Made by a program: the position numbers and the translations under genes. From an uncultured Clostridia bacterium (GTDB taxonomy: Bacteria; Bacillota; Clostridia; Christensenellales; CAG-917), in contig CANQBO010000004.1 in the NCBI GenBank assembly GCA_947589475.1, positions 1 through 64,000 of the forward strand: a DNA stretch of 64,000 nt, written 5' to 3'. This document shows, piece after piece, positions 49,017 to 61,499 of the stretch. The notes beneath the pieces are model-generated. The model saw nothing but the letters and a program-made list of their open reading frames with translations, made no database searches and was not told the origin of the DNA. Numbering within the stretch: the first letter of the stretch is position 1; each line of letters begins with the position of its first letter.

Positions 49017-51866
49017 ATGAAGAAAAGGCAACTTGCACTTATGCTGGTTTTGGTCGGATGCGTTCTTTCGCTGACGTTAGGGCTTACTGCGTGTGCGAAA
49101 ACCGAACAACCCTCCGAAGAAGAACCGGACACTACGACGCCGTTCGCGGCGCTTGAAAGCGCGTTTGATAATGCGCTCGATGAAGAAGGCGATCTTTATT
49201 TGCCCGTTTCGATCGGGTTCGAAGCATTCGGAGCGACCGAGCCTTTAAAAGGCGAGTTTAGTCTGCATCTCAACAAAGAGGCGTCCGAAGCAGGCGAGTA
49301 TGCTGACGCTTTCAAACTTAGATTTGACGTGGATATTTCCGAGTTTCCGCTCATTTCGGACATCGCCGACACACTGACTCTGCGCTATCCGGGCGACGGA
49401 CTGTTGCTCGTTATGCTTTGCAGCCATTCTAACGGCAAAGAAGTAGATCTTGTGACGTACCCTGTCGACCTCGGCTCCGCACTAAAAATTCTTCAAAGCG
49501 TCAATTTTGACGATTCCGAACAACTTTACGACATTCTCGAGGGGTTGATCACTGTCAACAAGGACGCAGACGGGTTTACGGCGTCTCTGAACAGCGCCAC
49601 CGTCAAATTGATGAATTCCGCCTACAAAGGAATTCTTTCAAAACTAGAGACCACCATTTCGGACGATCGCGGTATGGTACGTTCGCTGTTTGAGGCGACG
49701 TTTACGGGCGTTTCCGTCAAACTCACGGGCGTCGACATGATCTCCGCGATCGACGTTGCAATCGAAGGCGAGCCTCCCGTCAACGTCACCAAGGGAGAAA
49801 AATTCGACGTGAGTTTCGACATCGGCTTGCTCTCATCCTCGGGTATGCTCACAGGAGCGTTTGAGGGAGATATGCAACTGCGTCTTACCCCTGCCGCAAT
49901 TTGGTCAAAGGACTATTTTGCGATCGCCGAGGCGGGGCTTCATCTCGACCTTACGCCCGCAGGTACAATATTGGGAATGGTTTCGAGGCTTGCGCCGGCA
50001 GGGAGCTTGCCCGAATTTGTCAACCCCACACTCAGCAGTCTGGACGTCTACTATACGGGCGACGGCGTGTTGACGCTTGCTCTCAACAATACGGCAGAAG
50101 ATCCCGTCACGGCAGAAGATCCCGTCACGGCAGAAGATCCCGTCACGGCAGAATATCCCGTCTTTGTCACGCAGGTAGATCTTAAGACGGTACAAATGCC
50201 AGAACTGCCCGAAGATGTGACATCTTCACTGCTCGCCGAGTTCAGATTCGAAAAGCAGGCGAAAGGGTATCTCTTCGCACTGGGCGACCCCATTGTACAT
50301 ACTGTAGACGAAGCGTATCAAGGGCTTGTCACAAAGGCAAAAGACTACATCACGCAATCCGCAGGCACTTTTGGAGCGATCGCGGGCGCACTAATCGAAA
50401 AGATGATTGGCGCAACGATCGATGACATCGAATTCTTCATCGGCACCGACGAAGAGGACAATTTGACGCTTGACTTTGCGGTGAAGGGCGTGCCCGTTTT
50501 CGACGCGGAGGACGATTATTATCAAAGGCGGCTTCTCTCTCTCACGCTCACCCACGGCGGGGAACTCACCGAAGAGGAAAGTAAGGCGCTTCTTGCGGGC
50601 AAGGATGAGGTCGCTCAACTTATGAAAAACGCGGAGACGGCGGCGGGATATACGGATAGAATACAAGACCTCGTCGACAATATGGACCTCACCGAGAGCG
50701 GTAAGGACGCATATCTCCAAAAGGTAAAAGAATTGATCAAAGAAATAAACGGTCTGCCCGCAAACGTACGCAGTTTGATTTCGAATACATCATATTTGGC
50801 GGATACGAATTACAACGACGATACGCTTGCAAAGCTTCTCGTCATGCATGAGCTGTACTCTGCGCGGGCAAAGGCATTTGAAGATCTGCTTCCCGCGGAG
50901 GACAACTACGAAGGTTTCGAGGGGTGGGACGCGCTCAACGCGCTTTACGACAGCGAGGACACGACTCATCGAAATGATTTGGGTATCACCGTCCCCGCCA
51001 TCAAGGACAGCCCTGCCATACAGAAGGCGGTCGGCGAAGATCGCGTCAAAGCATTTGTTGAGGCAAGAGACAAATATGAAACCACTATAGTACAAAGCTT
51101 GAGAGAACGCATAACTAAGAACACGGAGAAATATAAAGACGTGACCGCGGACGTGACCGCGGACGCGACCGCGCGCGATGAACTGCTCGCTCTGCTTCAA
51201 GATTATTTGGAGGTCAAGCCCATATATGAGGCGCTCTCGGAAGAGAAGAGAAAGGAGCTCTCGGAAGAGTACAACGCTTATATGGCGCTTGCCTACACCA
51301 AAAATTTCGATGGTTTGAAGCAAGCGTATGAGGCTGTCAAAACCAAGATGCAAGCTCTGACGCAAGATGTCGACGCCACTGTAGATAATCTGTTGAAAAT
51401 CATGAAAGAGCTTGTTCCGGTGTACGAGTGGAAATCCGGCATGGACCTTTGGCAAAAAAGGGATGGCGAAAAAAAACCTTGGTTAAATTGGCTGAACAAT
51501 GTCCCTTCTCAATATAACGAACGATCGTGGGAAATAAGCGGGTTGGATTCCGAAGTCCATAAAGGGAAAGATAATATTGCAAATGCACTTGTCGACGCCT
51601 TAAAGGATAAGATAGCGACGGCGCTGAAGGCTTTGAATGACGAGCGTCAAACCTATGTAAAAGGCGATGGCTACGACTTTACAGTTTTGTCGGACGGCGA
51701 GACACTGCTTGAAAAGCTTCACGAATGGCGTTATTTCATCGACAGAGTTCTTCCGAATGCGGTAAAGAGTGAATTCCGCAACGATCAAGACCTTAATGAT
51801 ATTGTAGGCGGCATCGCGGCATATGAAAACGCGCTTTCCGCATATCTCGCCTCTCAAGGCGAATAA
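49017..51866 (+). CDS. Large surface lipoprotein of unknown function
   Basis: A 949-residue protein with a signal peptide ending in lipobox LTAC (about residue 26), hence membrane-anchored outside the cell. Residues 45-450 are beta-rich with no recognised domain. Residues about 359-382 hold four copies of the hexapeptide TAEDPV (18-bp DNA repeats at 50091-50162). Residues 500-949 are predominantly helical and charged, with coiled-coil-like stretches and a short DVTADVTADAT repeat. AAGGAGG precedes the ATG. A strong promoter and two direct repeats lie upstream, and a GC-rich hairpin ends the unit. Possibly an adhesin or binding protein; function unknown. Confidence 0.85.
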   Translation: MKKRQLALMLVLVGCVLSLTLGLTACAKTEQPSEEEPDTTTPFAALESAFDNALDEEGDLYLPVSIGFEAFGATEPLKGEFSLHLNKEASEAGEYADAFKLRFDVDISEFPLISDIADTLTLRYPGDGLLLVMLCSHSNGKEVDLVTYPVDLGSALKILQSVNFDDSEQLYDILEGLITVNKDADGFTASLNSATVKLMNSAYKGILSKLETTISDDRGMVRSLFEATFTGVSVKLTGVDMISAIDVAIEGEPPVNVTKGEKFDVSFDIGLLSSSGMLTGAFEGDMQLRLTPAAIWSKDYFAIAEAGLHLDLTPAGTILGMVSRLAPAGSLPEFVNPTLSSLDVYYTGDGVLTLALNNTAEDPVTAEDPVTAEDPVTAEYPVFVTQVDLKTVQMPELPEDVTSSLLAEFRFEKQAKGYLFALGDPIVHTVDEAYQGLVTKAKDYITQSAGTFGAIAGALIEKMIGATIDDIEFFIGTDEEDNLTLDFAVKGVPVFDAEDDYYQRRLLSLTLTHGGELTEEESKALLAGKDEVAQLMKNAETAAGYTDRIQDLVDNMDLTESGKDAYLQKVKELIKEINGLPANVRSLISNTSYLADTNYNDDTLAKLLVMHELYSARAKAFEDLLPAEDNYEGFEGWDALNALYDSEDTTHRNDLGITVPAIKDSPAIQKAVGEDRVKAFVEARDKYETTIVQSLRERITKNTEKYKDVTADVTADATARDELLALLQDYLEVKPIYEALSEEKRKELSEEYNAYMALAYTKNFDGLKQAYEAVKTKMQALTQDVDATVDNLLKIMKELVPVYEWKSGMDLWQKRDGEKKPWLNWLNNVPSQYNERSWEISGLDSEVHKGKDNIANALVDALKDKIATALKALNDERQTYVKGDGYDFTVLSDGETLLEKLHEWRYFIDRVLPNAVKSEFRNDQDLNDIVGGIAAYENALSAYLASQGE
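50091..50162 (+). repeat. Four 18-bp in-frame tandem repeats
   Basis: Unit ACGGCAGAAGATCCCGTC at 50091, 50109, 50127 and 50145 (the last with one change). The units code for TAEDPV. Length can vary by slippage without breaking the frame. Confidence 0.9.
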
Positions 51867-53063: not shown

Positions 53064-53663
53064 TTAGACGAAAAGCGAAACGAGGGTATTTTCGACTATG
53101 TTGCGCATCGCGGCGTAGTCTATGTAGGGATGATGATCGAAAACATACTCGTGCGAGAAGGATTGCACGATGTCCATCGCGAAGTGCACGCGTTCGTTGA
53201 GGTTGGGCGCGTCCAGCCCCAGACTTGCAAGCTTGCCCGCTATTTGCAGGGTGATGTCGTCCTCAAGCCGAATGAAACGCGCGTTGACCTCCTCGTCGGA
53301 GTGGGACATGCTGTGCAACGCTTCGTGGATGTTGGCGTTTTTTTGATGTATCTGCGTCGCCTTTGTAAGCACTTCGCAGGCGAGGGCATGCAGATCGACG
53401 GGGGAGCGCAGTTTGTCCATAAGCTCCAGCACGGGCGAGAATGCATTCTCGACATATATGGAAAGCACGTCGAGCAAGATGTCGCGCTTGTCCTTGAAGT
53501 AGCCGTAAACTATGCCCGTGGACACCCCCGCGCGCTTTGCGATCTGCGCCGTATTCGTCGAATAGTAGCCCACCTCGCTGAAAAGCTCGTAGCCCGCTTC
53601 GACTATTCTGTTTTTCTTTTCGATGGAGCGCTCCTGTTTCGGCTCTCTTATATCCTTTGCCAT
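53064..53663 (-). CDS. TetR/AcrR-family transcriptional regulator
   Basis: A 199-residue regulator. The N-terminal HTH covers residues 10-55: KNRIVEAGYELFSEVGYYST, IAKRAGVSTGIVYGYFKDK. The C-terminal ligand domain has no specific signature. I choose ATG 53663 (MAKDIREPKQER) over the longer frame at 53696. It is divergent to the feo operon, about 350 bp away, and could control either itself and the DUF2461 gene or the feo promoter; the ligand is unknown. Confidence 0.9.
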   Translation of the reverse strand: MAKDIREPKQERSIEKKNRIVEAGYELFSEVGYYSTNTAQIAKRAGVSTGIVYGYFKDKRDILLDVLSIYVENAFSPVLELMDKLRSPVDLHALACEVLTKATQIHQKNANIHEALHSMSHSDEEVNARFIRLEDDITLQIAGKLASLGLDAPNLNERVHFAMDIVQSFSHEYVFDHHPYIDYAAMRNIVENTLVSLFV

Positions 53664-54112
53664 TTTCACCCCCGCGCCTGAATGCGTGACCGTCATCGTT
53701 TATTTTATTGTTTTATTCTATACAAAGTATTATTATATTTCCAAATATCAGCATGTGCGGCAACCGTATGCCGCGACAAGCGTGCGCCGAGACCGCGCTT
53801 GGCTCCTTTTTTTGCATCATGCTCAGCGACGACAGTACGTTGAGACGCGTTTTTAGTCCTCGCGGTCTCGCCGAGCATATTTCGTCCGCCGCTATTTTCA
53901 AGCGTAAAATAAGGACATACGCCTCTACATGCCTTTAGTATACAGTATTTTCGACTGTTTTGCAAGGCGAAAAATAAAATGTGAAAAAAATTTCGCATTT
54001 TTTGTTTAAATCGGTTGACTTGTTTAAATCGGAGTGCTATTATCATATCGCTAAAACATGAAATAAATTTCATATTCTTCGCATAGGATGAATATGGAAG
54101 TGGGAGAGACTT
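53664..54112. other. TetR-feo intergenic region
   Basis: No gene supported. Near 53977-54000 there is an imperfect inverted repeat AATGTGAAA/TTTCGCATT, and around 54002-54032 two 13-bp direct repeats overlapping the feo promoter. Confidence 0.5.
54002..54043 (+). promoter_or_regulatory. feo promoter with paired direct repeats
   Basis: TTGACT (54015-54020), 17-bp spacer, TATTAT (54038-54043). TTGTTTAAATCGG occurs twice, at 54002-54014 and 54020-54032, 18 bp apart, flanking the -35 on both sides. This spacing puts both copies on nearly the same DNA face and fits an operator, perhaps for an iron-responsive or the nearby TetR regulator. Confidence 0.65.
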
Positions 54113-54325
54113 ATGCCGCTTATTGTTGCGCCGATAGGAAGAGAGCTGAGGATCGTCAGGATCCTGACGGATGAGAAAACAAAGAAGCATCTTGAGAATT
54201 TGGGCATCACAATTTCCTCAACGATCAGCATCATTTCTCAGAGCGGAGGGAGCACCATCTGCATGGTCAAGGACGGAAGGCTTGCTCTCGACAAAAATAT
54301 CGCGACAAAAATATTAGTGGCATAA
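54113..54325 (+). CDS. feoA: FeoA-domain protein 1
   Basis: A 70-residue SH3-like FeoA protein (VAPIGRELRIVRILTDEKTK, HLENLGI, GSTICMVKDGRLALDKNIA). FeoA supports FeoB-dependent ferrous iron uptake. It is the first gene of the operon with GGGAGAG upstream, and 11 nt separate it from the second feoA. Confidence 0.93.
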   Translation: MPLIVAPIGRELRIVRILTDEKTKKHLENLGITISSTISIISQSGGSTICMVKDGRLALDKNIATKILVA

Positions 54326-54336
54326 AGGAGGCAACA

Positions 54337-54702
54337 ATGCTTAAACTGTTCAAAAAGAAGGAACAGGCCGTGCCCGAGGTCAAGACTTCGAGCGGGGAGC
54401 TTGTCACCGTGACGATGTCTCTCGACAAGTTCGAAATAGGGCAATCGGGCGTCATCAAGAGCATAGGCGGCGACGGCAAGATAAGGCGGCGTCTGTTCGA
54501 TATGGGCGTGACTCCCGGCGCGGAGGTCTATCTTCGCAAGAGAGCGCCCCTCGGCGACCCCATAGAGGTCACCATACGCGACTATGAGCTTACTTTGAGA
54601 AAGACGGAAGCGGCTGTAGTCATGCTCGAGACAAAGGTGCCAAAGGGCGCGGACGGTAAAGCGGAGGGCGCTTCCGATGCTTCGGAGGTGAAAGATGCTT
54701 AA
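54337..54702 (+). CDS. feoA: FeoA-domain protein 2
   Basis: A 121-residue protein. The FeoA core lies at about 28-103 (IGQSGVIKSIGGDGKIRRRL, DMGVTPGAEVYLRKRAPLGD, EVTIRDYELTLRKTEA). The N-terminus (MLKLFKKKEQAVPEVKTSS) and C-terminus (KGADGKAEGASDASEVKDA) are added tails compared with the usual ~75 residues. Its end overlaps the feoB start by 8 nt, so translation is coupled. Confidence 0.93.
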   Translation: MLKLFKKKEQAVPEVKTSSGELVTVTMSLDKFEIGQSGVIKSIGGDGKIRRRLFDMGVTPGAEVYLRKRAPLGDPIEVTIRDYELTLRKTEAAVVMLETKVPKGADGKAEGASDASEVKDA

Positions 54703-57454
54703 ATTTGCACTTGCGGGCAACCCCAACTGCGGCAAAACGACGCTGTTCAATTCTTTGACGGGTTCGACCGCTCACGTCGGCAACTGGCCGGGCGTCACGG
54801 TGGACAAGAAGGAGGGCGTGTACAAAAAATGCGCCGAACCCATATCCATCGTCGATCTGCCGGGCATTTATTCGCTCTCGCCGTACACTCCCGAGGAGGT
54901 CATCTCGAGAAACTACATTCTCGACGAGAAGCCCGATTGTATCATCAACATCATCGACGCGACCAACCTCGAGCGCAATCTTTATCTGACTACGCAGATA
55001 ATGGAGATCGACGTGCCCATCGTCATCGCGCTCAACATGATGGACGCGGTGGAAAAAAACGGCGACAAAATAGACCCCGCCAAACTCGAGGAGCAGATAG
55101 GGCTTCCCGTCGTCGCTATATCCGCGCTCAAGGAAAAGGGACTTGACGAGCTTATGCAACGTGCCTACGAGGTGAGCAAACAGCCGAGGAAGGGCGCGAC
55201 GGTACTCAGCGATACGGCGCTCATGCACTTGATACGCGACTGTCAAATAGCGCTCGAAGGGCAGAAAGTCGAAAATTCGCTTTTCCACGCGATAAAGCTT
55301 GTGGAGTTGGACGAGATCGAAGTCGCGATGCATCCCGACAGCGCGAAGATGGTGGAGGAATTTAAACACACCTTCAACGACGACACATTCGGCAGCGATT
55401 TCGAGGCGATAGTCGCGGACAGCAGATACAAATATATTTCCAAATATTATTCGGGCGCGCTGGAGCGCAAAAAACGCTCGGACGGCTCGGACGGCGAGGC
55501 GAGCAAACTGTCCGTTTCCGACAAGGTGGACAAGGTGCTCACCCACAAGATATGGGGAATACCCATTTTCATCGTCGTGCTGTTTTTCATCTTCCATCTT
55601 ACGTTTTCCGAGGATCTGCTTTGGATAGGCGCGGCGGGCGCGTTTGACAAGGACGTGTTTGCCTACGACGCCGATGGCTATGCGATAACGGAATTCTACG
55701 ACGCGGAGGGCAACCTCCTCGACAGCCTTCTCGACGAAAACGGCGACCCCGTAGCGCTGTGCGACGCAAGCGGCAAACAGTATGACGTCTTTTATGACGA
55801 GGACGGCCATGAGGCGGAACTTGTCATAGGCGAGGACGGCGCGCTTGCCGAGCTTGAGACGGTGCCGTACGCGTACGCAACCAAAAACGGCGACAAACCC
55901 ATAAAGACATTCTACGACAAGGACAAAAACGAACTTACGTCGCTCGTGGACGAAGAGGGCAATTTGCTCGAACTGTACGACGCGGACGGAAGAAAATACG
56001 AGCGCTTTTACAATGCGGACGGCTACGAGGTCAACATCGTCGTAGACGAGGAGACGGGCGAGTTTGCGGACGTCGAGTTTGTCAGCGGCATAGACGAGTA
56101 TCTTTCCGAAATAACCGTGCACACATTCTTCGGATACGAAGAGGGCGTGTATTCGCCGGGCGTGATTTTGCAAAATACGCTCACCGTGCTCACCGACCTA
56201 ATAAGCGTGAGCATTGCCGAGGGTCTCAAGACAGCGGCTCCGTGGGTGAGTGGGCTTATCGTGGACGGCATATTCGGCGGTTTGTTCGCGGTGCTCAGCT
56301 TCCTGCCTCAAATACTGTTGCTCTTCTTGTTCTTCTCAATACTCGAGGACAGCGGCTACATGGCGCGCGTGGCGTTCATTCTGGACAGGATATTCCGCCG
56401 TTTCGGACTCAGCGGCAGGGCGTTCATGCCCATGATCATGGGCTTCGGCTGTTCCGTGCCCGCGATGATAAACACCCGCACGCTCGCCGACCAAAACGAG
56501 CGTACCTCGACGATACGCGTCATACCCTTCTTCAGTTGCGGCGCGAAGTTGCCCATTCTCACGGCGATAGCGGGCGGACTTGTTGAGCGCTTCGGGCTTG
56601 CAAACGCCGACCTCATCACGTACGGCATGTATCTTCTCGGCATAGTGACGGCGATATGTTGCGTGCTCCTCATGCGCAATACGACCATGAAGGGCGACGT
56701 CCCGCCGTTCATAATGGAATTGCCCGCATACCACGCGCCTCAATTCAAAAACCTTATGTTGCATCTGTGGGATAAGACAAAACACTTCGTCAAAAAGGCG
56801 TTCACGATTATTCTTCTCTCCACGATATTCATTTGGTTCATAAGCCACTTCAGCTGGAATTGGCAATATCTTGAAGACTCCGAGATGGGAGGCAGTATAC
56901 TTGCGGGGCTGGGAAGCATAATAAGACCGTTGTTTACTCCTCTCGGCTTCGGAAGCCAGCTCGATAAGCAGTGGGGCTGGGTGTTCGTCGTCGCGGCGAT
57001 AACGGGCCTCATCGCAAAGGAAAACGTCATCGCGACATTCGGTACTTTGGCGGCATGCATTTCCGGCGCGTTCGTTGCGGACGAGGCTCTCGAGGGCGTG
57101 GACAGCGTGGTGCAGATGATCTCGGCAACGGGCATTACAGCCCCCGCGCTCATAGCGTTTATCGCGTTCAACATGCTCACCATACCGTGCTTCGCGGCGG
57201 TCGCTACGGCAAAGGCGGAGTCTCCCTCGAAGAGTTCCTTCAGATGGACGCTGGTGTTCTGGGTGGTGACCTCGTACATCGTGTCGGCAATGATATACAT
57301 CATCGGCAGCTGGTGGTGGACGGTGTTCATCGTTGCGGCTCTGTGGGCGGCGGTCATTGCGCTCATAGTGCTCAACAACAAGGGCAAGATAGACGTCAAA
57401 GGCTTCTTCGATATGCTCAAAGAGAAGCTTCATCTAAAGCGTAAAAAGGCGTGA
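54695..57454 (+). CDS. feoB: Ferrous iron transporter FeoB with extracytoplasmic insert
   Basis: A 919-residue Fe(II) transporter, longer than the usual ~670-780. G domain: GNPNCGKTTLFNSLTG (about 7), GNWPGVTVDKKEG (G2), DLPGIYSLSPYTPEE (G3), ALNMMD (G4, NxxD). After the first membrane segment (about 290-306) comes an insert of about 157 residues (316-472), before the second membrane segments. The insert holds a duplicated ~57-residue unit (about 331-388 and 403-461), each with a FYD...G start, a SLxDExG centre and an acidic E-rich end. The conserved core resumes with VDGIFGGLFAVLSFLPQILL, then EDSGYMARVAF, GFGCSVPAM and SCGAKLP Gate motifs. The insert should be outside the membrane and may capture iron or bind a partner. 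Confidence 0.95.
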   Translation: MLKFALAGNPNCGKTTLFNSLTGSTAHVGNWPGVTVDKKEGVYKKCAEPISIVDLPGIYSLSPYTPEEVISRNYILDEKPDCIINIIDATNLERNLYLTTQIMEIDVPIVIALNMMDAVEKNGDKIDPAKLEEQIGLPVVAISALKEKGLDELMQRAYEVSKQPRKGATVLSDTALMHLIRDCQIALEGQKVENSLFHAIKLVELDEIEVAMHPDSAKMVEEFKHTFNDDTFGSDFEAIVADSRYKYISKYYSGALERKKRSDGSDGEASKLSVSDKVDKVLTHKIWGIPIFIVVLFFIFHLTFSEDLLWIGAAGAFDKDVFAYDADGYAITEFYDAEGNLLDSLLDENGDPVALCDASGKQYDVFYDEDGHEAELVIGEDGALAELETVPYAYATKNGDKPIKTFYDKDKNELTSLVDEEGNLLELYDADGRKYERFYNADGYEVNIVVDEETGEFADVEFVSGIDEYLSEITVHTFFGYEEGVYSPGVILQNTLTVLTDLISVSIAEGLKTAAPWVSGLIVDGIFGGLFAVLSFLPQILLLFLFFSILEDSGYMARVAFILDRIFRRFGLSGRAFMPMIMGFGCSVPAMINTRTLADQNERTSTIRVIPFFSCGAKLPILTAIAGGLVERFGLANADLITYGMYLLGIVTAICCVLLMRNTTMKGDVPPFIMELPAYHAPQFKNLMLHLWDKTKHFVKKAFTIILLSTIFIWFISHFSWNWQYLEDSEMGGSILAGLGSIIRPLFTPLGFGSQLDKQWGWVFVVAAITGLIAKENVIATFGTLAACISGAFVADEALEGVDSVVQMISATGITAPALIAFIAFNMLTIPCFAAVATAKAESPSKSSFRWTLVFWVVTSYIVSAMIYIIGSWWWTVFIVAALWAAVIALIVLNNKGKIDVKGFFDMLKEKLHLKRKKA

Positions 57455-57456
57455 AT

Positions 57457-57705
57457 ATGGGACCTATTGAAATAACAGTCATAGTGCTTGTCGCGGCATT
57501 CGTGCTTGCGATGATCATAGCGATGATCGTGAGAAAGCTCAAGGGAAAGCCGTCGCTAAGCTCGGATTGCGGTTGCTGTCCTTATAGCGGCGAATGTCAC
57601 GGCGCCTGCAAGGGCGAGGACGTATCCGACATCGTCGCCGAGGCGAAGGCAAGACGGAGGGATAGGAGCGCTTCGCAAGCCGAGGACGTCGGCGACGCGG
57701 AGTGA
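57457..57705 (+). CDS. FeoB-associated Cys-rich membrane protein
   Basis: An ~82-residue protein with one N-terminal membrane segment (ITVIVLVAAFVLAMIIAMIV) and a cysteine cluster CGCCPYSGECHGAC (about 38-51), the hallmark of the FeoB-associated family. ATG 57457 follows the feoB stop; GTG 57451 overlaps it and is also possible. The tail is charged. It completes the feoA-feoA-feoB operon. Confidence 0.9.
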   Translation: MGPIEITVIVLVAAFVLAMIIAMIVRKLKGKPSLSSDCGCCPYSGECHGACKGEDVSDIVAEAKARRRDRSASQAEDVGDAE

Positions 57706-57928: not shown

Positions 57929-59266
57929 ATGAACGAGGCAATAGTTGCAAACATAGCAAAATATGGGAAGATGCTCTTTGAAAAGAAGTACATCGAAAGC
58001 GGCTACATCGCCGTCAAAGAGGCGGACGGCATTTGCATCACGACCGCTACCGCCAAATTCGACGACATAAAGGCGGAGGACGTCGTCTTTGTCAACGACA
58101 AGAATATCGAGTCCTACGAGGGCAACTTCCGCGCGGCGGCGGTCATACTGTTCTGCGCCGTAAGACAGGACAAAAATTCGGGCGCGGCGGCCATAGTGGA
58201 CAGCGACAGCATACTAAAATATTCCGAGAAACACCTCACTCTGCAACCCATTTTGGACGACCTTGCGCAGGTGTGCGGCATAAGCATAAAGTGTGCGGCA
58301 AAAAACGTCGCGGCAGAGGTCGTGACCTCGCTTTCGGGGCTGAGAAACTGCTGTTTCCTTCCCGACGCGGGCGCGGTCGTCACGGGGCGCACCCTCGACG
58401 AAGTGTTTACGGCTACTCTCGTGCTGGACAAGGCTTGCAACGCGGAGTTGCTTGCGGAGGGCAAGGGCGGCACTCAGCACCTCGGCAAGGTGCAGGCTGT
58501 GCTTGAGCACGTCGTTTACAAGTTGAAATATTCAAAGAAAAATCAAGAACAGCAAAAGGACGCGGCGGAACATATCGAGGAGAAACCCGTTGAAGGCGAG
58601 ACAGCCGAGGCTCCCACGGAAGGCGAAACAGCCGAGTCCCCCGCTCAAGAGTCTAAGCCCGAGGATAAGAAGTCGGAGGCTAAGGAGGCGCGCGCAAGCG
58701 CGATCGTCACGGACAAGGAGAAAGAGATCGCGCAGGCGATAAAAGACGCCGGCATGACTATGCTGGAGGAAAACCTCGTGCAGGGCACGTGGGGCAACAT
58801 CGCCGTCAAGCTTGACGAGAAATATATGCTCGCCACTCCGTCGGGGCTCGATTATATGCTGTTGAAGCCCGAGCAGATCGCAAAAGTGGATATGGAAACG
58901 CTTGAGTGGACGGGCACGGACAAAGCGACAAGCGAAAAGGGCATACATGCGGTGTTGCTCGCGGGCGAGGGCATAGGAGCGACCATACACTCTCACCCCT
59001 TCTACGGCTGTATACTCGCCGCGATGGACAGACCGCTCCCCGTGCCCGACGAGTATAAGGATATTTTGGGGGAGGAGATACCTTGCGCAAAGGCGGCGCT
59101 CCCCGGCACGAAGGGACTCATCAAAAACGTAAGCGAGGCGATAGGCAACGCCCCCGCATGCTTCCTCGCGCACCACGGAGTCATCGCCCGCGGCAAGACC
59201 CTCGAGGACGCGCTGAACATCTGCCGCGCGCTGGAGAAAGCCTGCGAAGCGTATCTCAAGGCGTAA
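57929..59266 (+). CDS. Tandem class II aldolase/adducin-domain protein, degenerate N half
   Basis: A 445-residue protein with two related domains joined by a polar linker (about 205-260, with a repeated VEGETAE/TEGETAE motif). The C-terminal half (about 265-445) is a class II aldolase: WGNIAVKLDEKYMLATPSGL, the zinc ligands in HSHPFYG and the later HHG (AHHGVIARGKTLEDALN). Such enzymes are L-fuculose- or ribulose-phosphate aldolases/epimerases. The N-terminal half (residues 1-200) follows the same fold plan (KYGKMLFEKKYIESGYIAV, DDIKAEDVVFVND, GAVVTGRTLDEVFTATLVLD) but lacks the HxH and HHG zinc ligands. The gene stands alone between feo and a terminator. A CGGGC-GTAC-GCCCG hairpin lies before its ribosome binding site. 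Confidence 0.82.
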   Translation: MNEAIVANIAKYGKMLFEKKYIESGYIAVKEADGICITTATAKFDDIKAEDVVFVNDKNIESYEGNFRAAAVILFCAVRQDKNSGAAAIVDSDSILKYSEKHLTLQPILDDLAQVCGISIKCAAKNVAAEVVTSLSGLRNCCFLPDAGAVVTGRTLDEVFTATLVLDKACNAELLAEGKGGTQHLGKVQAVLEHVVYKLKYSKKNQEQQKDAAEHIEEKPVEGETAEAPTEGETAESPAQESKPEDKKSEAKEARASAIVTDKEKEIAQAIKDAGMTMLEENLVQGTWGNIAVKLDEKYMLATPSGLDYMLLKPEQIAKVDMETLEWTGTDKATSEKGIHAVLLAGEGIGATIHSHPFYGCILAAMDRPLPVPDEYKDILGEEIPCAKAALPGTKGLIKNVSEAIGNAPACFLAHHGVIARGKTLEDALNICRALEKACEAYLKA

Positions 59267-59537: not shown

Positions 59538-61499
59538 ATGAATAAACATCATCAAATTCTACGGGGGGGGGTACATATTGCTTTAGTGCTTCTGTTGACT
59601 CTGTTGATAATATCCTCCTTCGTCGCATGCGGGCCTGCGAAAAATAAAGAGAGCAAGGTCGAACTTATCCCGCACGATGCCGAGACTCTGTTTGCGGAAA
59701 GTTATGATTATGTTTCCATGTTCGAGGCAACCATTGACGGCGGTCCGTTTGAGATCAAAGCGGAAAACATCGATGCGTCCGCTGTAAAATTGAATGAAGC
59801 GGGCATTTACGATGTAAAGTGCGAAATTGAGGTCGATGGCAAGAAATACAGTGCGACCGCAAAGCTCACAGTTGTCGCGCCAAGAGATTTCTCTGTCGAT
59901 GCAAAGTCAAGCGAGCTAAAAGTGGTCATCATCGGAGAACAGCTTGACGTCGCAACGCTGTTCAGCGCGACAGTGGCGTCTAAGTCGTACACGTTGAAAG
60001 CGGAAGATATCGATGCGTCGGGTTTGGATCTGACAAAAGAAGGGCTTTACGAAGTTACCGCAAGTCTCACGATAGATGGTGTGACAAAGAGCGCAACTCA
60101 AAAGATATATGTCATACCTGCCGCAAATTACGACATAAACGGCGCAATGGAATTCAACTACGCCAACTACAGCGCTAAAATATCCGTAGAAGAGGACGAT
60201 AACGGCAATAAAGCCTCCGAGACTATTACAGTCAAAGACGCTGAAGGAAAGTATCATTATGAGAGCAGGCTCCCGCTGTCAAACGGTGGCGAAAGTCATG
60301 TGACATATGAGTTCCAACTTGATACCGATTCAGGCGCGGTTCTCAAAACATATCTCTACAATGAGACATCAAAAGAATGGGAAAAGCGCGCTACGGATTC
60401 GGATACGAATGCGTATGTCAACCACGTAGAAGTCGATGAGGCATTTGCAAACTACTTCATCCTCGGCGAGGATGGAATGTTCGCGGCGGACGCAGACGCA
60501 CAGACATTGACGGATATTGCATGCAGCTTGCTTTGCTACAATACAAGTTTGATTGGCGATATTACGTCTTTGAAAGTGCGTGTTGAAAACAACAAAATCG
60601 TTAAAATCGTGGTAGAGTCGGCTTATGTGGGTGAAGACGATTATATCGACAAATATCTCATCACGGTCGAACTCAGCGATTTCGGCGCCGTGGAATTCGA
60701 TCTACCTTATTTTGAGCCTGAAGTCGAGATAACTCACGTTGATGCCGAAGTTTTTGTCGGTGACGAAACAGAGTATGATTTTCTTTCCATGTTTACGATA
60801 AAGGTTGATGGTCACAGCTACACCTTGGGCGAAGGCGACAAATACTCGATAGAGCAGAGCGTCGATTTCAACAAAGCCGACGAATATGATGTCACATTCA
60901 AACTCAAAGTAAAGGAGGGACTAGAAGAGCACACTGCCACAGCTAAATTCACCGTCAAGGAAAAACCCATCGAGAAAAAGACTTTCCGCGCCGCCATGGA
61001 GGAGATGATTGCCAACTGCACGATGACGAAGACATCTAATTCCGGTAGCAATACAACAATATTCTTAGTAGACGGCAATGCAACATACAATCAAACTTCA
61101 AAATTCTTGTTTGATACAAACAATATCAATGGGAAAAATACACAAAGATATACGGTCAATACCGATAATACTTTAAAAGATGATGGTTTGAAGAGCGGTT
61201 CATTTTTACGCTTGTGTGATTTATTGGCGATAATAGATGATTTTGTTGTAGGCGATGACGGCATCACCTACACATATACCGGAGACCAGCTCACTACTAT
61301 TTCAACTAATGCGGGTGCTTTAATGACCACAATGTATAAAGCCATTAATATAGAAATAGTTTTTCAAAATAACTCAATAGAGTCTATAAAATTTAATTTC
61401 AAGACGGGATCCAGTGCGACTGCAAAAGACGCTTATCATCTTTACACGATCTCCGCGATCGGGACGACGGAGTTGCCTGTACAATTGCCAAAAGCGTAA
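59538..61499 (+). CDS. Ig-like-domain lipoprotein with G9 tract in signal peptide
   Basis: A 653-residue protein. The signal peptide (MNKHHQILRGGVHIALVLLL) ends in lipobox VAC (about 33). Three Ig-like (DUF5011/bacterial Ig type) repeats are visible: about 45-110 (ETLFAESYDYVSMFEATIDG), 115-195 (ATLFSATVASKSYTLKAEDI) and 395-470 (DETEYDFLSMFTIKVDGHSY). The rest is unrecognised. A run of nine G (59563-59571) sits at codons 9-12. Loss or gain of one G would truncate the protein early, so expression could be phase variable. AAAGGAG precedes the ATG. Confidence 0.8.
   Translation: MNKHHQILRGGVHIALVLLLTLLIISSFVACGPAKNKESKVELIPHDAETLFAESYDYVSMFEATIDGGPFEIKAENIDASAVKLNEAGIYDVKCEIEVDGKKYSATAKLTVVAPRDFSVDAKSSELKVVIIGEQLDVATLFSATVASKSYTLKAEDIDASGLDLTKEGLYEVTASLTIDGVTKSATQKIYVIPAANYDINGAMEFNYANYSAKISVEEDDNGNKASETITVKDAEGKYHYESRLPLSNGGESHVTYEFQLDTDSGAVLKTYLYNETSKEWEKRATDSDTNAYVNHVEVDEAFANYFILGEDGMFAADADAQTLTDIACSLLCYNTSLIGDITSLKVRVENNKIVKIVVESAYVGEDDYIDKYLITVELSDFGAVEFDLPYFEPEVEITHVDAEVFVGDETEYDFLSMFTIKVDGHSYTLGEGDKYSIEQSVDFNKADEYDVTFKLKVKEGLEEHTATAKFTVKEKPIEKKTFRAAMEEMIANCTMTKTSNSGSNTTIFLVDGNATYNQTSKFLFDTNNINGKNTQRYTVNTDNTLKDDGLKSGSFLRLCDLLAIIDDFVVGDDGITYTYTGDQLTTISTNAGALMTTMYKAINIEIVFQNNSIESIKFNFKTGSSATAKDAYHLYTISAIGTTELPVQLPKA

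Follow-up and report, generated by a model that had tools for sequence, protein, structure and literature searches.

A duplicated acidic insert, probably of YD type, in the predicted first outer loop of a clostridial FeoB

The insert and its internal repeats

Why does a ferrous iron transporter of otherwise common design carry a long additional stretch between its first membrane segment and its channel, and of what is this stretch made? The question is raised by the feoB gene (54695-57454, + strand; 919 aa) of an uncultured Clostridia bacterium, located in the window analyzed here, i.e. the 64,000 nucleotides at the start of contig CANQBO010000004.1. The domain order of the protein is the following: G domain, GDI region, first membrane segment (TM1), outer insert, Gate/channel and FeoB_C. 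Judged by its domains, FeoB of the window is normal apart from the insert: the Pfam families FeoB_N (227 bits), Gate (109 bits) and FeoB_C (65 bits) are all over their cut-offs, and the TIGR00437 feoB model scores 539 bits for a cut-off of 315.65, its best stretch beginning at residue 472, which corresponds to model position 255. The role of the protein as an Fe2+ transporter is predicted from these sequence matches.

The insert comprises residues 316-472 (157 aa; 55640..56110, + strand) and lies between TM1 (residues 280-312 by hydropathy; 55532..55630, + strand) and the channel; the whole loop, counted between FHLTFSE, where TM1 ends, and the conserved SPGV, is 180 aa long. Self-alignment resolves it into copy 1 (residues 323-391; 55661..55867, + strand) and copy 2 (residues 392-463; 55868..56083, + strand). 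Aligned over approximately residues 331-391 and 403-463 the copies score 132, a value reached by none of 2000 shuffled pairs (best 56), which bears out the extra residues and the two copies described in a first-pass annotation of this DNA. That annotation gave a unit of about 57 residues present twice; the duplication stands, but the unit is itself composed of smaller YDxxG units which had not been spelled out. The strongest self-similarity lag in the insert is 72 residues (z 7.5), and further lags are raised at 83, 11, 32 and 43 (z 5.0, 4.4, 3.8 and 2.5) and weakly at 21 (z 2.0). Because of these further lags we read each copy as built of YDxxG units of about 10.7 residues, such as YDADGYAITEF, YDAEGNLLDSL and LDENGDPVALC. 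A period of about 21 residues, made of two YDxxG steps, appears through lags 11, 21, 32 and 43, lag 21 itself being weak.

An assembly or frame artefact was considered and rejected: the frame is free of stops in the insert-bearing related genomes, and the ratio of non-synonymous to synonymous substitution rates (dN/dS) of the insert is below 0.3 in 12 pairs. At E up to 1, we found no second copy of the insert elsewhere in the genome. The G+C content at third codon positions gives no indication of recent import, the value for the insert (0.726) matching those of the G domain (0.723) and of the channel (0.742). The anatomy, a real and duplicated insert, is the part of our interpretation that we hold with high confidence.

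The same annotation had placed the module outside the cell. FeoB topology and hydropathy support this: as the G domain is cytosolic and is followed by one membrane segment, the loop would be on the outer face, and no hydrophobic stretch occurs after residues 280-312 until about residue 489, the best 19-residue window within residues 312-480 reaching 0.59. The protein shares with ordinary FeoB its domains, its TIGR00437 score and an operon with FeoA. It differs from them by the length of outer loop 1, which is 31-52 aa in the 16 of 39 related FeoB that have no repeat, and for which predictors give nine residues, in the periplasm, in a proteobacterial FeoB (from a portion of PMC12147183). In E. 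coli, the whole FeoB is 773 aa long with possibly 8 helices (from a portion of PMC10647171).

Nature of the repeat

The resemblance to YD/RHS repeats, called only loose in the first-pass annotation, appears closer than this wording. The Pfam RHS_repeat model scores 24.1 bits on the whole FeoB and 32.4 bits on the insert alone (cut-off 22), and the NCBIfam YD_repeat_2x model scores 17.9 on the loop alone (cut-off 15.8). Among 20 aligned loops, RHS_repeat matches ten (E up to 0.01), YD_repeat_2x ten (E up to 0.1) and FibBindPlpA seven, and an HMW1 model matches one loop at 6.4e-5. Loop profiles were searched (E up to 0.001) at three levels, with 396 genomes for the order, 391 for the class and 398 for the phylum. 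Matches in the order, found in 27 of the 396 genomes, are distributed as follows: 20 concern an insert-bearing FeoB, two a FeoB matched through its flanks only (G029 and G265) and five YD proteins. The class and phylum searches gave matches in nine and eight genomes, in each case the own genome plus large non-FeoB open reading frames. The non-FeoB loci matched number 24; 21 can be read at the match, and 20 of these carry two or more YDxxG-like motifs, while L093 has none where it matches; in L058, L087 and L092 the position of the match could not be established.

The predicted structure of the loop consists of short beta strands, with a mean predicted local distance difference test score (pLDDT) of 83.2, and of 87-95 over loop residues 21-160. 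Queried with this model, Foldseek, which also uses amino acids, returned Rhs, teneurin or Tc-type YD structures at all of ranks 1-20, none of them significant. As for other beta repeats, OspA enters the Foldseek list from rank 21 and MORN appears in the viral structure list, again without significance.

Several results weigh against a YD assignment. Taken singly, both units stay under the RHS_repeat cut-off, with 14.7 bits (E 0.109) in copy 1 (55733..55837, + strand) and 16.8 bits (E 0.0248) in copy 2 (55949..56026, + strand). YD_repeat_2x gives no match on full-length FeoB at E up to 0.01, and the same RHS_repeat genome search gives matches in 8 of 14 control genomes, over the cut-off in two. 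With a strict home-made model derived from 129 RHS units the insert obtains 6.6 bits, a score reached by at least 5 of 2000 shuffles (best 8.8); six of the 20 loops score above this best shuffle. Foldseek found no significant structural match for the loop model, VIA-align gave no row for it (the full model matched by its G domain alone), and the viral structure library gave no significant match for the module. Sequence searches of the PDB are too weak to build on: the insert as a single sequence matches Tse15 at E 0.0011 and Tre23 at E 0.0042, and the loop profile matches Tre23 at E 0.037.

These weak single units, the strict model and the lack of a significant structural match would all suit an acidic beta repeat that acquired a YDxxG look by convergence, with no common origin with RHS/YD repeats. 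Such an origin would also fit the absence of a donor: when the genome (1.89 Mb) is searched in six frames with RHS_repeat, only two matches appear at E up to 1, one per copy, and a resident RHS gene was rejected as donor since nothing outside FeoB is matched at this threshold. Convergence nevertheless appears rather improbable to us, given that curated models score the insert or the loop over their cut-offs, and given the YDxxG-bearing open reading frames among the other profile matches and the Foldseek ranking; short repeats, for their part, cannot decide origin. We therefore use the label "YD-type" and not a firm family membership, because the score over cut-off sums several units. That the repeat is of YD type rather than an unrelated acidic beta repeat remains likely on these sequence comparisons, at a confidence lowered slightly because control genomes match too and because YD_repeat_2x does not match full-length FeoB.

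The insert probably belongs to the YD type of repeat but FeoB is not an RHS protein. Among the 12 Pfam families listed for the protein there is no shell, core-associated or toxin domain, and it does not qualify as an RHS protein or Tc-C toxin. With Rhs, Tc toxin C and teneurins it shares the YDxxG units, the step of about 10.7 residues and the curated models over cut-off; in contrast to them, its module is short, isolated, present in two copies, more acidic, located inside a membrane transporter and, judged by the Pfam families listed, accompanied by no shell, core or toxin domain. A separate observation concerns another genome of the order, where positions 1117-3372 of L057 form part of a 2793-aa open frame whose YDxxG-type repeats are spaced more widely and so differ from standard RHS.

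Distribution, history and locus

To describe the spread of the insert we used a set of 39 FeoB rows with a minimum length of 600 aa, obtained after removal of 17 duplicates and of the fragments L032 and L033; L055 and L084 are outside the set. The 16 rows without the repeat have loops of 31-52 aa, and none of the 39 combines the long loop with absence of the repeat. Eleven of the 20 genomes in the genus have the insert, as do 12 of the 43 in the family (plus one flank-only match) and 20 of the 396 in the order (matches >50 bits), where it lies within FeoB only; the TM1-loop-TM2 region of this FeoB type is matched in 201 of the 396. Within the genus, the length of the insert-bearing loops is nearly fixed (175-181 aa). 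The nine genomes of the genus without insert are divided as follows: five have a 31-aa loop, one a 43-aa loop, and three show a distant FeoB or a GTPase match only, two of these three being <90% complete. Both copies are full only in the genus of the window (11 distinct proteins); in relatives outside it copy 1 is shorter by about 28-31 residues. The named relatives are uncultured Clostridia, Bacillota and Christensenella-labelled assemblies, and in several cases the isolate name begins with "Lapin" or "RUG"; the one labelled as from buffalo rumen has the short-loop form. A search of open-licence papers by title and abstract found none that deals with a FeoB insert of this kind. We also observed, in another family of the same order, a distant FeoB on a long branch (L056:1414-1752) whose 113-aa loop contains about one YD unit.

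A tree was built from FeoB without the loop (37 rows; L056, for its long branch, and L072, whose protein is that of L011, were left out). The genus clade with two full copies is supported at 99/97. Two proteins of different families without module lie beside insert-bearing ones: L023 (52-aa loop) is sister to L080 (100/99), and L061 (50-aa loop) groups with L050 and L076 (99/97). The insert as the mark of a single FeoB clade was rejected: holding the 21 insert rows together gives p 4e-70 in the approximately unbiased (AU) test. A constraint that adds L023 and L061 to these rows is not rejected (p 0.239), these constrained groups having been chosen after the tree was seen. The free tree requires four gain/loss changes. 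One gain with at least two losses is probably the simplest reading of these data. In place of the YD module, the loops of L023 (1432-1587) and L061 (1444-1593) have a common acidic linker, EEEVEYD. They could be a remnant, an older state or swapped loops.

Gain and losses would have taken place within one conserved feo locus. Upstream of feoB and in the same operon are two FeoA genes, the first at 54113..54325 (+ strand; PF04023, 2.8e-12), the second at 54337..54702 (+ strand; PF04023, 8e-22), which overlaps the start of feoB. On the 3' side follows a small FeoB_associated-like gene (57451..57705, + strand), under the cut-off of that family; a TetR-like regulator (53064..53696, - strand), for which all family matches are under their cut-offs, is divergent. 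Neighbours were surveyed by tblastn with 9 window proteins against 25 loci, where L075/L116 and L086/L113 are apparently the same contig and some loci end close by. At least one FeoA gene adjoins feoB in 25 of 25 loci, and a TetR-like gene adjoins feo at 10 of the 15 distinct loci with the insert and at 6 of the 8 distinct loci lacking it. In L107 and L108, of the same genus and without insert, the gene row is that of the window (TIGR02453-like, TetR-like, FeoA, FeoA, FeoB, FeoB_associated-like); in other loci one or both outer genes of this row are often missing from the matches. None of the 9 proteins travels with the insert, the feo neighbours being present with and without it.

Three other proteins of the window have particularities of their own. 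A 445-aa protein (57929-59266) matches class II aldolases by its C-terminal 180 residues or so (FucA-like, below cut-offs), its N-terminal part of about 260 residues having no comparable match and an acidic low-complexity linker joining the two. A 949-aa lipoprotein-like protein (49017-51866) contains three tandem TAEDPV hexapeptides (residues 359-376), and a 653-aa secreted-looking protein (59538-61499) contains repeated units of about 80 residues, with the motif KAE(N/D)IDAS present twice.

Possible role of the module

The insert is under purifying selection, looser than in the core domains. In the 12 pairs its dN/dS is 0.126-0.270, compared to 0.019-0.113 for the G domain and 0.033-0.121 for the channel part, i.e. 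2.2-10 and 2.2-6.1 times higher respectively; these values are rough, many synonymous distances being near saturation. The linker at residues 251-284 (0.05-0.61) is looser than the insert in several pairs, and insert pairs differ by 0-4 gap columns. In the turn motif D368-E-D370-G-H-E373 of copy 1 (55796..55813, + strand), D368, D370 and E373 are invariant among the 20 aligned loops, as are Y324, Y394, F406, G422 and others (near-copies included), and many aromatic and glycine positions are unchanged in 20 or 19 of the 20.

These data bear on an alternative in which the insert is a tolerated spacer, a repeat that has come to lie in a permissive loop and stays folded only to avoid harming FeoB. 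The module is dispensable, as seen from L023 and L061 beside their insert-bearing sisters and from the same-genus relatives with loops of 31 to 43 aa. Against a mere spacer speak the occurrence of the insert across several families within the order, the nearly fixed length in the genus and the three acidic turn residues and many aromatic and glycine positions that are kept, and we consider it unlikely.

The high content in D/E noted at first is confirmed: the insert has 44 D/E for 10 K/R in 157 residues (pI 4.05). In all 23 insert rows, among which one protein appears twice, the loop carries a net charge of -0.166 to -0.250 per residue, and the minimum for YD proteins is -0.127 (596 overlapping segments, 19 loci). 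It is mainly because the loop is much more acidic than YD proteins that we prefer ion gathering as its role. On the other side, stretches of -0.166 and -0.178 also occur in two secreted proteins of the window, so that acidity is partly general, and the module-less loops of L023 and L061 (-0.25 and -0.28) are as acidic or more.

According to a portion of PMC10647171, there is no consensus on the transport mechanism or the binding residues of FeoB. We propose that a FeoB of otherwise ordinary build received a YD-type beta ribbon in its outer loop 1. The two tandem copies of about 70 residues would form a module of short strands, anchored in the membrane part by both its ends and predicted to lie outside the cell near the channel. 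The strong negative charge and the fixed D-x-D-G-x-E turn would raise the local concentration of Fe2+ (and of other divalent cations), and the ions gathered would be passed to the channel, the module acting as an uptake booster at low free ferrous iron. It is an accessory, since close relatives carry the same transporter without it. A functional analogy, and no more than that, is provided by Orai1, where acidic residues outside the pore raise the local cation concentration in a Ca2+-accumulating region (from a portion of PMC8834118); this channel is unrelated, and has three aspartates near the pore and no folded repeat module.

A YD-type ribbon serving as an acidic, ion-gathering vestibule on FeoB is our best explanation overall, a tentative one that we place somewhat below even probability. 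Ion gathering as the role for which the module was selected, argued by analogy, is possible though doubtful.

YD shells and teneurins serve outside the cell for interaction or as carriers, and the ribbon could instead be a surface facing proteins or glycans, which docks a partner or a cell-wall polymer, or shields the channel from peptides, phages or bacteriocins, with drift following. The looser constraint relative to the core domains and the presence and absence within the same locus would fit, and binding of a cationic host peptide to a proteobacterial FeoB has been reported (from a portion of PMC12147183). We give such a surface a low probability: the feo neighbours in the window are found in loci of both kinds, with the insert and lacking it (the survey covered these neighbours only), and there is no sign of an arms race, dN/dS being well below 1, the 251-284 linker looser in several pairs and gap columns few.

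The insert is a real, unusual extension of a known transporter. In its widest form, our reading is that a YD-type ribbon may have been recruited as a membrane-anchored acidic Fe2+ antenna at the mouth of FeoB in Clostridia apparently (by their names) of the herbivore gut, gained once, present in two full copies in one genus and repeatedly discarded; taken as a whole, we regard this history as unlikely, if conceivable. If true, it would be, as far as the searches made here reach, an unusual use of a YD-type repeat, otherwise known from large secreted shells. Matched orthologues in one genus, at the same locus, with and without a large acidic outer module, make ion capture at the outer face directly testable.
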